NCBI GenBank assembly: GCA_902535565.1 | Contig: CACAUH010000020.1 | Span: 1 to 19,952, forward strand | Direction of reading: 5' to 3' | DNA from: an uncultured Bacteroidota bacterium | Lineage (GTDB): Bacteria; Bacteroidota; Bacteroidia; Flavobacteriales; UA16 | DNA length: 19,952 nucleotides | Part shown: positions 1,021 through 4,814 of the stretch, in pieces | Numbering within the stretch: position 1 is the first letter of the stretch | Layout: every line of letters starts with the position of its first letter | Notes under the pieces: model-generated | The model's input: the letters and a program-made list of their open reading frames with translations, nothing else | Told to the model about the DNA's origin: nothing | Database searches by the model: none | Made by a program: the position numbers and the translations under genes

Positions 1021-1466
1021 TGAGGGGGCGGTTGTTCACTTCACTGTTGTTTCTTGTTGCTTCGGTGGCCTTGATGCGGTGTGCGGGAGGGAACGAAAGC
1101 AAACCAGCCGACCCGCGATTGGCTCCTGCACAGCCGAATTACACGTCAGAATTGGCCCAATCCATGCGCGATTTGGATGCTGAACTTCTGGAGATTCAGC
1201 AGCTGCTGGAGGCAGGAGAAGACGTGGAGGGAGTGCGCATCACAGAGTATCAATTCACTGCCCTCGAGCCAACGCACAGTTCCATGCTGGTCGACGGTTT
1301 TCAGGCCCTTTCTATGGCGTTTGCCCATCACGTGGCAGAATTCAATGCTGCTCCGGCTGCAGAGACTTATTCTGCAGTGGTCCGAGGTTGTGAGGCATGC
1401 CACATGCGTTCTTGTCCTGGGCCGCTTGACCGGATTGCCAAGCGATATTTGAGTGACGATGAGTGA
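1020..1466 (+). CDS. CXXCH lipoprotein, class II cytochrome c-like
   Basis: 148 residues from the ATG at 1020, which shares a base with the TGA of the preceding gene; a TTG three bases upstream is a weaker alternative. The N-terminus is a lipoprotein signal ending at Cys21, with an unusual Arg just before the cysteine. The mature protein is largely helical (residues 43-66 and 86-110) and ends with GCEACHM, a single CXXCH haem-attachment motif at residues 124-128. A haem motif near the C-terminus of a helical protein is the layout of cytochrome c'/c556. A fourth cysteine (C132) follows the motif. Likely a lipid-anchored monohaem c-type cytochrome of the envelope; electron partner unknown. The gene overlaps purU by 8 bases. 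Specific family assignment is an inference. Confidence 0.65.
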   Translation: MRGRLFTSLLFLVASVALMRCAGGNESKPADPRLAPAQPNYTSELAQSMRDLDAELLEIQQLLEAGEDVEGVRITEYQFTALEPTHSSMLVDGFQALSMAFAHHVAEFNAAPAAETYSAVVRGCEACHMRSCPGPLDRIAKRYLSDDE

Positions 1467-2349
1467 CCCCTTTAATCCCAGTGTGATGGACCGTTTTCGT
1501 GTGATGTTGGCTTGTCCGGACAGGAGGGGCATTGTGGCCGAGGTTAGCGGCCTGTTGGCAGAGCTGGGCGCCAATGTCACTGCAGTATCTCAATTCACTG
1601 ATGCTGCATCCGCTCAGTTTTTTGTTCGGTATGAAGTGGAGGCAAATCTGGGTCAGTTGACATCGAAATCCTTGCATGCTGAACTGTCATCGGGACTTGG
1701 CGATTTGCTGGCCCATCCCGATTCATACTTCGTTGTTCGCCCTTCGGACCATCGGCCGAGGGTGGCCTTGTTGGCATCGAAGGCCAGTCACTGTTTGGTT
1801 GAGGTGTTGCAGCGTTGGCGTTCTGGAGAGTTGCCCTGCGAAATTGTGTGTGTGGTGGCCAACCATCCACACATAGAAGAATATGCGGGATGGTTCAACT
1901 TGCCATTTCACCATGTCCCTTTTTCCCCAGAAACAAAGGGTGAGGCCTTTCGAGAGGTGGAGGGCTTGCTGGAACGGTATGAGGTTGAGGTAACCGTTCT
2001 CGCCAGGTTCATGCAGGTGATCCCGAATGGGATGGCGAAGTCCCACCAGGGCAGGATGATCAACATTCACCACAGTTTCCTGCCTTCTTTTATTGGTGCC
2101 CGCCCTTATGAGCAGGCGCATTCAAGGGGCGTGAAGTTGGTGGGGGCAACGTGTCATTATGTGACACCTGATTTGGATGAAGGCCCGATTATCGAGCAGG
2201 AGGTCGTTCGAATTTCGCATCGGGATTCTCCAGCGGCTTTGCGTCGAAAAGGTCGTATTTGTGAGCGTGAGGCTTTGGCGCGTGGATTGAAGCTCCACCT
2301 CGAGGACCGGGTCTTCATGCATGGCAACAGGACGGTCGTATTTGACTGA
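1459..2349 (+). CDS. purU: Formyltetrahydrofolate deformylase PurU
   Basis: Hydrolyses 10-formyltetrahydrofolate to formate and tetrahydrofolate in the cytoplasm, supplying formate for PurT and balancing one-carbon pools. 296 residues, slightly longer than the usual 280 or so. Residues 12-90 form the N-terminal ACT regulatory domain (RFRVMLACPDRRGIVAEVSG). Residues 100-285 form the formyltransferase-fold domain with the expected catalytic set: Asn135 in VVANHPH, His204 in INIHHSFLPSF and Asp240 in TPDLDEGPII. The start is the ATG at 1459, inside the end of the cytochrome-like gene; a GTG two codons earlier is possible. glyA, the other one-carbon gene here, is far away at 15056. Family call is firm. 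Confidence 0.95.
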   Translation: MSDPFNPSVMDRFRVMLACPDRRGIVAEVSGLLAELGANVTAVSQFTDAASAQFFVRYEVEANLGQLTSKSLHAELSSGLGDLLAHPDSYFVVRPSDHRPRVALLASKASHCLVEVLQRWRSGELPCEIVCVVANHPHIEEYAGWFNLPFHHVPFSPETKGEAFREVEGLLERYEVEVTVLARFMQVIPNGMAKSHQGRMINIHHSFLPSFIGARPYEQAHSRGVKLVGATCHYVTPDLDEGPIIEQEVVRISHRDSPAALRRKGRICEREALARGLKLHLEDRVFMHGNRTVVFD

Positions 2350-2393
2350 ACCCCAAGGTTTCATTGTCCATCCTGGACCATTAAAGCTTATGT
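2350..2393. other. Short spacer after purU
   Basis: Non-coding spacer between the purU stop and the 3' end of the minus-strand RNA candidate. It contains a 5-bp hairpin, GTCCA-TCC-TGGAC at 2366-2378, without a following T-run on either strand. I see no clear plus-strand terminator for purU. Confidence 0.3.
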
Positions 2394-2450
2394 AAAAAAG
2401 AAATCCGCACAGTCCAATCCAGGCGGAGCCCTTCATTTCTTGTGCGGATT
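2394..2450 (-). terminator. Closing helix and U-run of the RNA candidate
   Basis: On the minus strand AATCCGCACA (2450-2441) pairs perfectly with TGTGCGGATT (2411-2402) across a 29-base loop, followed by T, C and six Ts (2401-2394). This works as an intrinsic terminator for a minus-strand transcript. The long loop suggests the helix is also the 3' domain of the structured RNA. Confidence 0.6.
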
Positions 2451-3094
2451 CTTTCGGGCGAGAACCACCCGAGGGTGTTCTGCTCACAGGGGAACGGGGG
2501 GGTTCCCTGCGCTGCGCCGTTTCAAGGGCGCCCCGAGCCTCCGGGTGTCGGTCTTGACTTGGTCCATGACCAGCGTTTATCCCTTCAGCGCCCGGCCAGC
2601 CGAAGCTGTCTCGGTCCACTCGGTTTCCCGTGTGGGTCAGACGAACAATTTGCACTGTCCGCCTCAAGCTGCCGGGGACGCTTTGCCTTTCGGCAGCCTT
2701 TCCCTGAACCCTTTGGTCACATTCCCAATCTCGAGAGGCTGAGAATGCCGACCTCCTGTGCCTTTCGACTGGAGGTCTTCCGTTTGGTTCTGGCGGGCCA
2801 GATCCAACACCATCCCTCTCCGAAGAGTGCCTCCACTCGCGTGGTTGCATCCATGTTGCCGAGACAACGCCGGCCGAGGCCGGTGGCGGGGGTGCCTCTT
2901 CCGTTCCGGATTGGGACAAGTCCCTCTGGGCACTAGGCCCCACCCATTCTCAGGGTGCCTTCCCGTCGGAGGACGGCACGAAGTCGCTTTCGCTTCTCCG
3001 GTCAGGTGGCCTTTCGATCACGTACCCTCTGGTTTCCCTTTGGGCCCAACAACATTCGGCGAGCCGATCCTCCGGGGAGGTTCCTTTGCCGGAG
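2394..3094 (-). ncRNA. Candidate large structured RNA (about 700 nt), family not recognised
   Basis: No reading frame here has protein-like composition, yet the minus strand is dense with short stems closed by stable tetraloops. In 5'-to-3' RNA order: stem 3089-3094/3070-3075; CGGC/GCCG 3057-3066; a GUGAUC-GAAA-GGCCAC-like hairpin about 3005-3022; GUGCC/GGCAC 2955-2979; GGGA-CUUG-UCCC 2913-2924; CCGGCC/GGCCGG 2870-2883; GUUG/CAAC 2855-2868; CCAC-GCGA-GUGG 2833-2844; CUC-UUCG-GAG 2818-2827; seven-pair GACCUCC/GGAGGUC 2750-2777; UGCC-GAAA-GGCA 2684-2695; CAC-A-CGG-GAAA-CCG-A-GUG 2616-2635; CAGC-UUCG-GCUG 2597-2608; GGGAAC/GUUCCC 2490-2507. The GNRA and UUCG loops read correctly only on this strand. 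It ends in a 10-bp helix plus U-run (2394-2450). I do not see the invariant cores of RNase P RNA, tmRNA, SRP RNA or a group II intron. The 5' end is uncertain. Confidence 0.5.
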
Positions 3095-3255
3095 CATTGG
3101 ATTGTCGTTGCTGACACCACAAGGGTGGGGAAGAATTTCCAAACAGGCTGCATCGGCAAGCCTCTTGTATTCAACTCTGTACGCACATAGGTTATCCACA
3201 ATTGTGAATACAGTTGTGCTGTCTAGCCCAAAAATAAACGCCCTTCCGATTCTGC
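3095..3255. other. Non-coding leader region between the DinB gene and the RNA candidate
   Basis: No protein gene is supported. The stretch is less GC-rich than the RNA body and probably holds the promoter of the RNA on the minus strand, although I find no clean -33/-7 pair. It contains the DnaA-box-like pair annotated separately. Confidence 0.35.
3192..3211. promoter_or_regulatory. Pair of inverted DnaA-box-like sites
   Basis: TTATCCACA at 3192-3200 is a perfect match to the DnaA-box consensus TTATNCACA. Two bases later, TGTGAATAC (3203-3211) matches the box on the opposite strand at 8 of 9 positions. The core CACAATTGTG is palindromic, so a dimeric repressor operator is an equally simple reading. 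Position upstream of the minus-strand RNA suggests a regulatory role. Confidence 0.35.
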
Positions 3256-3732
3256 TTAGGTCGGCGAGGTTGCTTCCAACATTCTGCGCAAATAGTTCAA
3301 TTGCCCCATGTGTCTGGAAAGGTGGCAACTCAGTTGCATGAGAAAGAACCTTATGGATCGGCCTTGGTGGTGAGCAGGTGGAGACGGCATGGGGTTGTCC
3401 AGCATGTCGGGGTCGAGATGAAGGAGCGCTTGGTTCACGGCCTTGCGTGTGTTTTCGATTTCGATGAGCACCTCCTGCTTTGGAATGGGCGTTCCGGCGA
3501 ATTCTTGGTCCCTGTGCCGAATGTACCCGTCTTGCCCGAGCAGATGGCCGACAAAATGTCTGAGGTTGCCGCAGAGGTGAACCGACAGGGTGCCGACGGA
3601 GTTCGTGACGCCATCCGTTGTGCTCCACAATACATGATCGGGAGTTGCAAGCACCTCCTTTGCCAGGGCCTGGAGGTCTCGTGTAAGGATTTGCCGCAGT
3701 AGTTCCAGTTCGACGGAGATAGATTCACTCAT
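3256..3732 (-). CDS. DinB/YfiT-fold protein
   Basis: 158 residues from the ATG at 3732-3730. An upstream extension in the same frame, to about 3807, overlaps the sulfotransferase and looks non-native. The protein is a four-helix bundle of the DinB/DUF1572-like superfamily. The candidate metal-binding triad is His52 (in TLSVHLCGNLRHF) with His137 and His141 (an HxxxH in LSCHLSRHMGQLNYLRRML), the usual placement in helices 2 and 4. Members are metal-dependent, often thiol-linked transferases or of unknown role; the substrate cannot be read from sequence. The start overlaps the sulfotransferase stop as ATGA, which implies translational coupling. Confidence 0.8.
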   Translation of the reverse strand: MSESISVELELLRQILTRDLQALAKEVLATPDHVLWSTTDGVTNSVGTLSVHLCGNLRHFVGHLLGQDGYIRHRDQEFAGTPIPKQEVLIEIENTRKAVNQALLHLDPDMLDNPMPSPPAHHQGRSIRFFLMQLSCHLSRHMGQLNYLRRMLEATSPT

Positions 3733-4814
3733 GCGGCCAATTTCGTTTGATGTTGACGTTCGTTTGTGTTGTGCACGGGAACGAGAGGAGCCTTTAGTGT
3801 TCCCCACAGGTCCAGTGTTTTTTGGTCTATGCAGTTGGCCATGTCGTCGGTGAGTTGTGCCTTCCAGTCGTCTGTTCTGCCGGAGCGAAAGAAGCGATTG
3901 GCATTGAAGTGAAATGTTCCGGGGTTGGTCAGGATGGCGTTTTTCATGGTGTTGAACTCGGTGCTTTCTGCCACGGCAGCCTCTTGTTCTGGTGAGGGGA
4001 GAGGATGTCCCAGAAGAAACTGGCTGAGACGTTTGACTGAATTCAGTTTGTCCTCAACCAGATCTTCGTAGCGGAGGATGCACAGTTGATTCGGATTGAT
4101 GCCGAATTTGGACGCTTCGAAATAGGACTTGACGTGTTGATGGTAGTCTCCGAAATACAGGTCGCCATCGACAAAGAAGTTGACAAATTGCGTCATGGTC
4201 ATGTCGGGAGAAACGCCTAGAGTAGGGTGTTTTTTATAAAAGTGGTATTGTGAGACTGCTGCGCCTTTTGGATCGCGGTAGGTCATGACCAGCTTGGTCT
4301 TAGGGTGTAAGTTGCGAACAGGCAGTTCGTCGATGTTGGCGTGTGTGTAGAAGACGCGCGGTTGTCCTTTGGTGCGCTCGAGAAAATCGAGAAATGCATC
4401 CAAGCCATTTTGTGATGCAGTGACTTCGGGCCAGGGCACAGCGCCTTTTCCTATGTCTCCGCAGGCGGCTGGATGGTGTGCGTCAAGCACGCCGGCTGTC
4501 CTGAGGATTTCCACGATGAACTTCTTGGTCAGGTGAGTTCCCACTTTTTGGTGCGTGCAGATGAGGATGTCATGCTCAGTGGTGTCCCAAGTTTGACTTA
4601 GGGCATCCGCGGCATTGGGGTTGATGAAGGCAGGGATCATCCTGCCGTTGTACCGGGCGTGAAGAAAACCAAGTTTTTGGCACTTGGCAGACTGGGGAAC
4701 AACGGGTTGAATGGGCTGACTCATGGCATCGGGCAATTGGATGTTGGCAAGGTGCAGCTGTGCCTGAGTTGTCCCGATGACGATCGTCATCTTGAAATTT
4801 GAGATTCGTTTCAT
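3729..4814 (-). CDS. PAPS-dependent sulfotransferase
   Basis: 361 residues from the ATG at 4814; later Met9 and Met31 are possible starts, and Met31 (MSQPIQPVVP) fits a soluble enzyme well. It carries the elements of the Sulfotransfer_1 family: a 5'-phosphosulfate loop (CTHQKVGTHLTKK, residues 86-98), catalytic His158 in VFYTHANIDELP, the 3'-phosphate site with Arg180 and Ser188 (MTYRDPKGAAVSQYHF), and the C-terminal FFRSGRTDDWK (308-318), which corresponds to RKGxxGDWK. It should transfer sulfate from PAPS to a hydroxyl or amine acceptor in the cytoplasm. Acceptor unknown; a lipid or other small molecule is plausible. No signal peptide. Paired with a DinB-fold gene, with no sulfate activation genes in the window. 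This cytosolic (SULT-like) type is not common in Bacteroidota, so acquisition is possible. Confidence 0.88.
   Translation of the reverse strand: MKRISNFKMTIVIGTTQAQLHLANIQLPDAMSQPIQPVVPQSAKCQKLGFLHARYNGRMIPAFINPNAADALSQTWDTTEHDILICTHQKVGTHLTKKFIVEILRTAGVLDAHHPAACGDIGKGAVPWPEVTASQNGLDAFLDFLERTKGQPRVFYTHANIDELPVRNLHPKTKLVMTYRDPKGAAVSQYHFYKKHPTLGVSPDMTMTQFVNFFVDGDLYFGDYHQHVKSYFEASKFGINPNQLCILRYEDLVEDKLNSVKRLSQFLLGHPLPSPEQEAAVAESTEFNTMKNAILTNPGTFHFNANRFFRSGRTDDWKAQLTDDMANCIDQKTLDLWGTLKAPLVPVHNTNERQHQTKLAA

Follow-up and report, generated by a model that had tools for sequence, protein, structure and literature searches.

What does the DNA between purU and a DinB-like gene encode in an uncultured member of the Bacteroidota (Flavobacteriales), within a stretch of 19,952 nt that we analysed whole and call the window? 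A preliminary description had read this interval as an "unidentified large structured RNA on the minus strand," a proposal supported by the lack of any Rfam match, by homologues in related genomes and by the pair-keeping changes among them. The features concerned are as follows.

2394..3165, minus strand: body of the large structured non-coding RNA; where it begins was inferred from the first conserved hairpin together with the promoter block
3172..3210, minus strand: conserved promoter block ACAATTGTnnnnAAnnnnnGTnnnnnnnnTGT, whose motif lies upstream in 33 of 36 loci
3205-3198, minus strand: ACAATTGT, inside the promoter block, followed by TTGTGG and TACAGAGTTG
3192-3200, plus strand: TTATCCACA, inside the promoter block
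3145..3163, minus strand: first hairpin (AGGCT...AGCCT), helix 4, with 5 of 5 pairs changed on both sides and 73% of cells paired
3103..3116, minus strand: UGUCAGCAACGACA motif, an TGTCAGCAA-like element and GTCARYRA-type match
2941..2957, minus strand: CACCC-UGAGAAU-GGGUG hairpin, helix 17, bearing the CCUGARAAUGG motif, with 4 of 5 pairs changed on both sides and 100% paired
2581..2676, minus strand: branched domain of three long hairpins (helices 36-39), with 27 of 37 pairs changed on both sides
2394..2560, minus strand: most conserved 3′ domain, source of the models R1 and R2
2398..2453, minus strand: terminal hairpin AATCCGCACA...TGTGCGGATT with an inner hairpin
2450-2441 with 2411-2402, minus strand: perfect 10-bp terminal helix
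2399-2394, minus strand: six-T run
1453..2349, plus strand: purU (formyltetrahydrofolate deformylase), convergent neighbour (Pfam PF00551 and ACT)
3256..3807, minus strand: DinB/DUF1572-like protein gene, upstream and on the same strand as the RNA (Pfam PF07609, PF12867)

The extent first proposed, 2394–3094, was right in its size class but not at its 5′ end, which lies ~70 nt further upstream and is preceded by the promoter block; sequence conservation extends to about 3211, beyond 3094. At the opposite end, the perfect 10-bp helix and six-T run of the preliminary description are both present. We infer a single transcript of ~770 nt in the window. Against 20 shuffles per strand, single-sequence folding of 2380–3110 has a z of −3.75 for the minus strand and −2.55 for the plus strand. 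A simple promoter and terminator scan of 2000–4000 returned no site; its terminator rule admits loops of 3–8 only, and the loop of the terminal hairpin is longer.

In a PurU scan of a species-genome collection, the best 80 of 403 relatives were used, and at seven of seven loci (L001–L007; Flavobacteriales or ‘Crocinitomicaceae’ MAGs) the RNA segment, from about 3211 to 2394, lies beyond purU. Identity to the window segment is 85% in L001 and 78% in L002 and L003, and L004–L007 match in pieces, the longest at 72–75%; for the RNA body, the longest matched pieces across L001–L007 are 72–85% identical. A covariance model of the RNA's 3′ 169 nt (R1) matched 15 of 299 genomes in the order sample and 16 of 114 in the family, once per genome, with all 15 among the 16. 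A second model (R2), which included the most divergent match, matched 37 of the 114 family genomes at E up to 0.1. Of these 37, 35 could be recognised as the RNA from their terminal hairpin, promoter or setting; G185 was confirmed later, and G095, a weak match of unconfirmed identity, was left out of the carrier count. Ten carriers were added by the promoter pattern together with CCTGARAATGG (G257, G288, G292, G092, G177, G179, G185, G075, G261, and G153), and promoter-like matches without CCTGARAATGG (G072, G051, and G163) were dropped. In total, 45 of the 114 genomes in this single Flavobacteriales family are carriers, probably a lower bound because the assemblies are fragmented, and the RNA is mostly present once per genome. 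Second partial copies stand at contig edges in G263 (contig C28:18-79, the terminal hairpin) and G006 (contig C24:6287-6318, locus L233, the 5′ end); they may be true second copies, strain mixtures or assembly duplicates.

Outside the family, the order, class and phylum samples yielded no RNA. R2 matched 3 of 395 genomes in the phylum sample, and 3 of 395 were matched in the class sample, G001 alone being real in each case. Matches of R2 in G355 and G442 were rejected on their letters alone; pattern matches in G758 and G984 sit inside long open frames and are not the RNA. Terminator-pattern matches likewise fall within open frames of 251–619 codons, five of them in the order sample outside the family (G199, G295, G103, G030, and G048) and one inside it (G224).

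With an E limit of 1e-100, 100 of the 114 family genomes have a BipA, which is 78–96% identical to that of the window in 58 and 58–72% identical in 42. Forty of the 45 carriers have it, every one at least 78% identical to the window's, and the RNA as defined occurs in none of the 42 genomes at 58–72%. Two of these (G238, locus L242; G183, locus L243) hold, on the minus strand, the same promoter block followed by a ~390-nt, non-coding-looking segment conserved between both, in which AGAATCCACGCGGG near the start could pair with CCCGTGTGGATTTTTTATTT at the end. This segment, for which Rfam has no match at E up to 1, may be a distant and shorter relative in genomes that do not belong to the main group of carriers.

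Is the minus-strand product a folded RNA? Among the first seven full-length homologues, 78 of 210 consensus pairs had changed on both sides. An alignment of 15 full-length homologues (A3) gave 129 of 241 consensus pairs with pair-keeping changes on both sides, as against 35–45 when partners were slid by 1–3 columns; 89.0% of cells were paired in the named structure versus 34–42% with slid partners, and doubly changed cells numbered 485 versus 57–89 in the slid controls. Four of five pairing measures exceeded every one of 500 shuffles; the fifth (further pair types) exceeded 498 and was reached by the other 2. The alifold energy of A3 was −438 kcal/mol compared with −227 ± 8 for 20 column shuffles (26 SD lower), and its 129 doubly changed pairs compare with 41 ± 6 in the column shuffles (maximum 57). 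The clades B1, B2, and B3, each aligned separately, gave fold z scores of −10.9 (three sequences), −17.7 (seven), and −18.4 (eight), respectively. Doubly changed pairs exceed the shuffle maximum in B2 (74 vs. 54) and B3 (81 vs. 52), whereas B1 adds little covariation because its 12 such pairs stand against a maximum of 11. Energies on the RNA strand and the opposite strand are −438 and −418 in clade A, −534 and −451 in B1, −254 and −203 in B2, and −349 and −276 in B3. Since the two strands are nearly equal in doubly changed pairs in A (129 and 129), B1 (12 and 11), and B2 (74 and 75), the strand preference rests on energy.

Covariation among homologues, raised as a check in the preliminary description, was borne out for the structure as a whole but not pair by pair. 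In an R-scape-like per-pair test (APC G-test against a tree-based null, weak with 15 related sequences), no pair reached E <0.05, the best being 0.43; with no single pair significant, the covariation is therefore a property shown for the whole structure only. Some alifold pairs map within the promoter block, where no helix of the RNA can exist. Taken as sequence comparison, these data show that the predicted minus-strand product has many short helices under selection for base pairing, and it is almost certainly a genuine structured RNA.

The two ends of the RNA are marked by recurrent elements. The terminal hairpin has the form TCCGCA...TGCGGATTT in 38 of 45 carriers (34 of the first 35 and 4 of the 10 later ones), a count in which the 35 terminal-hairpin rows (window included) were selected by the TCCGCA...TGCGGATTT pattern itself. 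At L168 (G191) it reads TCCGTA...TACGGA, a C-G to U-A change on both sides, and the contig of G261 stops short of it. Clade B4 (L245–L248 and L250) has a highly conserved RNA body and a terminal hairpin that differs in its letters, being GAACCGCG...CGCGGTTC in three of five loci by the script rule. The hairpin extension ATCCGCAACGGTG pairs with CACTGTTGCGGAT in L237 (G288) and CACCGTTGCGGAT in L238 (G292), differing from its relatives with the pairing kept.

At the 5′ side, TTGTGG and TACAGAGTTG are what we take to be −33-like and −7-like promoter boxes. Among the 36 loci checked, the motif lies in the first distance range in 29, slightly closer in three (L170–L172), and it is also present in L168; it is lacking in L113 (G175), and the contigs of L004 and L163 end too soon to hold it. 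The distance from motif to the end of the terminal hairpin is 663–1,123 nt. From the block to the RNA end it is 807–828 nt in clade A, 917–921 in B1, 667–902 in B2, and 1,088–1,127 in B3, and the RNA itself would start ~40 nt into this length. The promoter pattern occurs in 47 of the 114 family genomes (reversed control, 0), and a stricter form gave 22 matches in 715 kb (both strands, 31 loci), of which 19 are at RNAs and 3 are the reverse reading of those sites. In the same genomes, the 160 nt preceding three RNase P genes and two tmRNA genes showed no such block. In G004, the 5′ part of the RNA is on a separate contig, which carries the same promoter block.

Within the body, the preliminary description had pointed to short minus-strand helices with GNRA or UUCG-type loops, and the GNRA class is indeed kept across homologues: all 15 homologues have GNRA at two of the consensus loops, and 13 of 15 have it at a third, with varying letters, and some loop sites alternate between GNRA and YNCG. 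The GTCARYRA-type match stands 90 nt after the ACAATTGT start in every clade A RNA (15 of 15) and 86 nt after it in five of seven from B2. The CCUGARAAUGG loop motif is exact in 22 of 33 full-length RNAs and in 10 of 10 later loci (32 of 43). At L149 (G263; the same locus as L173), tandem copies of a ~55-nt GC-rich unit lie inside the RNA homologue. Conserved motifs inside a fast-changing body are what a new ribozyme might look like, its active site formed by the UGARAAU and UGUCAGCAA loops and the terminal hairpin. The sequence suggests neither substrate nor cleavage site, however, and the proposed active-site letters are not general: the exact CCUGARAAUGG motif, and with it UGARAAU, is absent from seven of seven B2 RNAs, and the UGUCAGCAA (GTCARYRA-type) element was not found in B1 or B3. 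We regard a ribozyme of this design as unlikely.

Could the RNA instead be a very divergent GOLLD, ROOL or OLE, or else a large RNase P RNA, a tmRNA or the remnant of a group II intron? The comparison with Rfam proposed in the preliminary description came back empty: Rfam 15 gave no gathering-score match in the window, and relaxing the threshold to an E of 10 over 2300–3300 added chance matches only. In 24 homologue loci and the two candidate short relatives, E up to 1 returned just tRNAs and sub-threshold chance matches, and 11 loci (genomes partly shared with the 24) gave only tRNAs at the gathering score. The RNase P RNA model (RF00010) has no match in the window, and no Rfam intron model for group II introns matches the window or the homologue loci. 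For tmRNA (RF00023 and ARAGORN, the latter finding neither tRNA nor tmRNA in the window), the sole trace is an 11-bit, plus-strand beta_tmRNA far under the cut-off. RNase P RNA and tmRNA resemble the present RNA as stable structured RNAs with their own genes, but they are shorter (~340 and ~400 nt) and are separate canonical genes in carriers, over the cut-off in 13 and 7, respectively, of 16 tested. In G004, two RNase P RNA matches (contigs C72 and C291) occur in one MAG, which may be a mixed bin.

According to PMC12286853, many GOLLD RNAs are >800 nt and ornate, have a conserved 3′ region and a 5′ region that is less so, and are often found close to tRNA genes; ROOL (a 659-nt example) is ornate, has no known protein partner and is often near tRNA islands; and the functions of GOLLD, ROOL, and OLE are said to remain poorly understood. 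The present RNA is like GOLLD in being large and ornate with a conserved 3′ part and in having a tRNA nearby in part of the family, but it differs in its syntenic chromosomal settings and in having no Rfam, phage or plasmid match. It is like ROOL in size class, ornateness and, in some genomes, a nearby tRNA, but it lacks an Rfam match and a prophage setting, and the tRNA is a single tRNA-Arg in part of the family rather than an island. OLE, as described in published abstracts, is a ~600-nt conserved structured RNA whose biochemical function is not known; the present RNA shares its conserved structure and similar size class, but has no Rfam match and comes from Flavobacteriales, whereas OLE is reported mostly from Bacillota.

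Membership in one of these classes would be in keeping with the size, ornate fold, conserved 3′ part and occasional tRNA neighbours that recall the descriptions of GOLLD and ROOL (PMC12286853); the empty Rfam searches, the separate RNase P RNA and tmRNA genes, and the lack of any blastn match between the window RNA and phage or plasmid records make it quite improbable. The loci examined have syntenic chromosomal settings without recognisable phage genes. A pattern scan of viral contigs gave two terminator look-alikes, the surroundings of which share only short chance matches with the RNA. RNA candidates described in PMC8040213 are 27–219 bp long, and Bacteroidetes motifs in PMC2864571 (e.g., 6S-flavo and Flavo-1) were given Rfam numbers; no Rfam model matches the present RNA. 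In the literature covered, which takes in few subscription journals, no RNA of this kind is described from the group. As covariance models are unmatched and the setting is chromosomal and syntenic, we therefore place the RNA in a new family among large ornate bacterial RNAs.

The genomic setting bears on whether the RNA acts for itself or on a neighbour. In clade A (the window and 15 genomes), purU lies past the RNA end in 8 of 16 (the window and L001–L007), 11 of the 16 have a cytochrome-like gene (F2) next to the RNA, and 10 of the 16 have a large T9SS-type gene (F4) upstream. B2 and B3 have two genes upstream of the RNA, one C1-peptidase-like (F5) and one methyltransferase-like (F6), each in 10 of 15 loci, some contigs being cut (functions in all four cases were read from sequence). 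The setting is syntenic inside clades and different between them, and no protein family was found to neighbour the RNA in all clades; because protein neighbours change in this way, the RNA is best seen as a stand-alone gene and not as a cis element of one neighbour. On the same strand, tRNA-Arg(ACG) stands 65–118 nt past the terminal hairpin in 15 loci, and L147 has an additional downstream tRNA cut by the contig end; no tRNA follows the RNA in the window, clade A, B1 (three loci) or B4. The adjacency in part of the family weakly suggests a link to translation or tRNA. In L168 and L237–L239, the RNA end and the tRNA have between them a TATCTTTG-type box, presumably a promoter box.

A long cis-acting leader, attenuator or 3′ UTR controlling the neighbouring gene would also occupy an intergenic position, and could explain why a same-strand tRNA-Arg comes next in 15 genomes, with a contig-cut tRNA in one more. 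Against such a role, the RNA has its own promoter-like block and a terminal hairpin with a T run, the downstream protein genes of clade A (purU and cytochrome-like) are convergent to it, protein neighbours vary between clades, and the TATCTTTG-type box separates RNA from tRNA in the four loci named. We judge cis control very unlikely; that the RNA is stand-alone and trans-acting is, by contrast, highly probable.

Conservation unrelated to RNA, as in a replication origin or protein-binding region, would suit the TTATCCACA and the palindromic ACAATTGT in the promoter block and a GC skew that is locally below zero at 2251–3250. The cumulative skew, however, keeps rising past the dip with no lasting reversal, and a DNA-level element would explain neither the pair-preserving changes nor the better folding of one strand in four clades; its probability is very slight. 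On the plus strand of the window, the promoter block at 3192–3210 reads TTATCCACAATTGTGAATA, which resembles two inverted DnaA boxes; in other clades it is chiefly the ACAATTGT core and the right-hand half of TTATCCACAATTGTGAATA that persist.

An overlooked protein-coding gene can be practically dismissed: stop-free stretches reach 300 codons in some homologues, but the longest shifts in position, strand and frame from homologue to homologue, and frame-breaking indels predominate (21 of 23 are not multiples of three relative to L005). Eight open frames of at least 60 aa overlap 2394–3165, and the four that were scanned have no match to Pfam families. The absence of a credible protein frame, asserted in the preliminary description, agrees with these results, and the RNA reading is not contradicted by any frame kept in homologues.

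Overall, the locus is probably best explained as a gene that stands alone and encodes a large structural RNA acting in trans. Its own conserved promoter-like block would drive one RNA, ~630–1,090 nt across the family, that would end at the terminal hairpin plus T run and might compact through tetraloop contacts. By analogy with GOLLD, ROOL or OLE, the last of which has associated Oap proteins, the product could work as a stable particle or scaffold, made of RNA only or of RNA and protein. That it is a particle or scaffold rather than a ribozyme or antisense regulator is a tentative reading, short of likely. Also short of likely, though plausible, is a new ornate RNA class unrelated to GOLLD, ROOL, and OLE—a vertically inherited chromosomal housekeeping gene whose product would be an RNA-only particle or a large ribozyme.

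Apart from rRNA, only a handful of known bacterial RNAs are as large and as structurally complex. A class unrelated to these in sequence, and chromosomal and syntenic in its setting instead of phage-borne, would suggest that large ornate RNAs recur as cellular machines, and its deeply diverged members in this family provide a comparative data set for solving the fold of the RNA and seeking its function.
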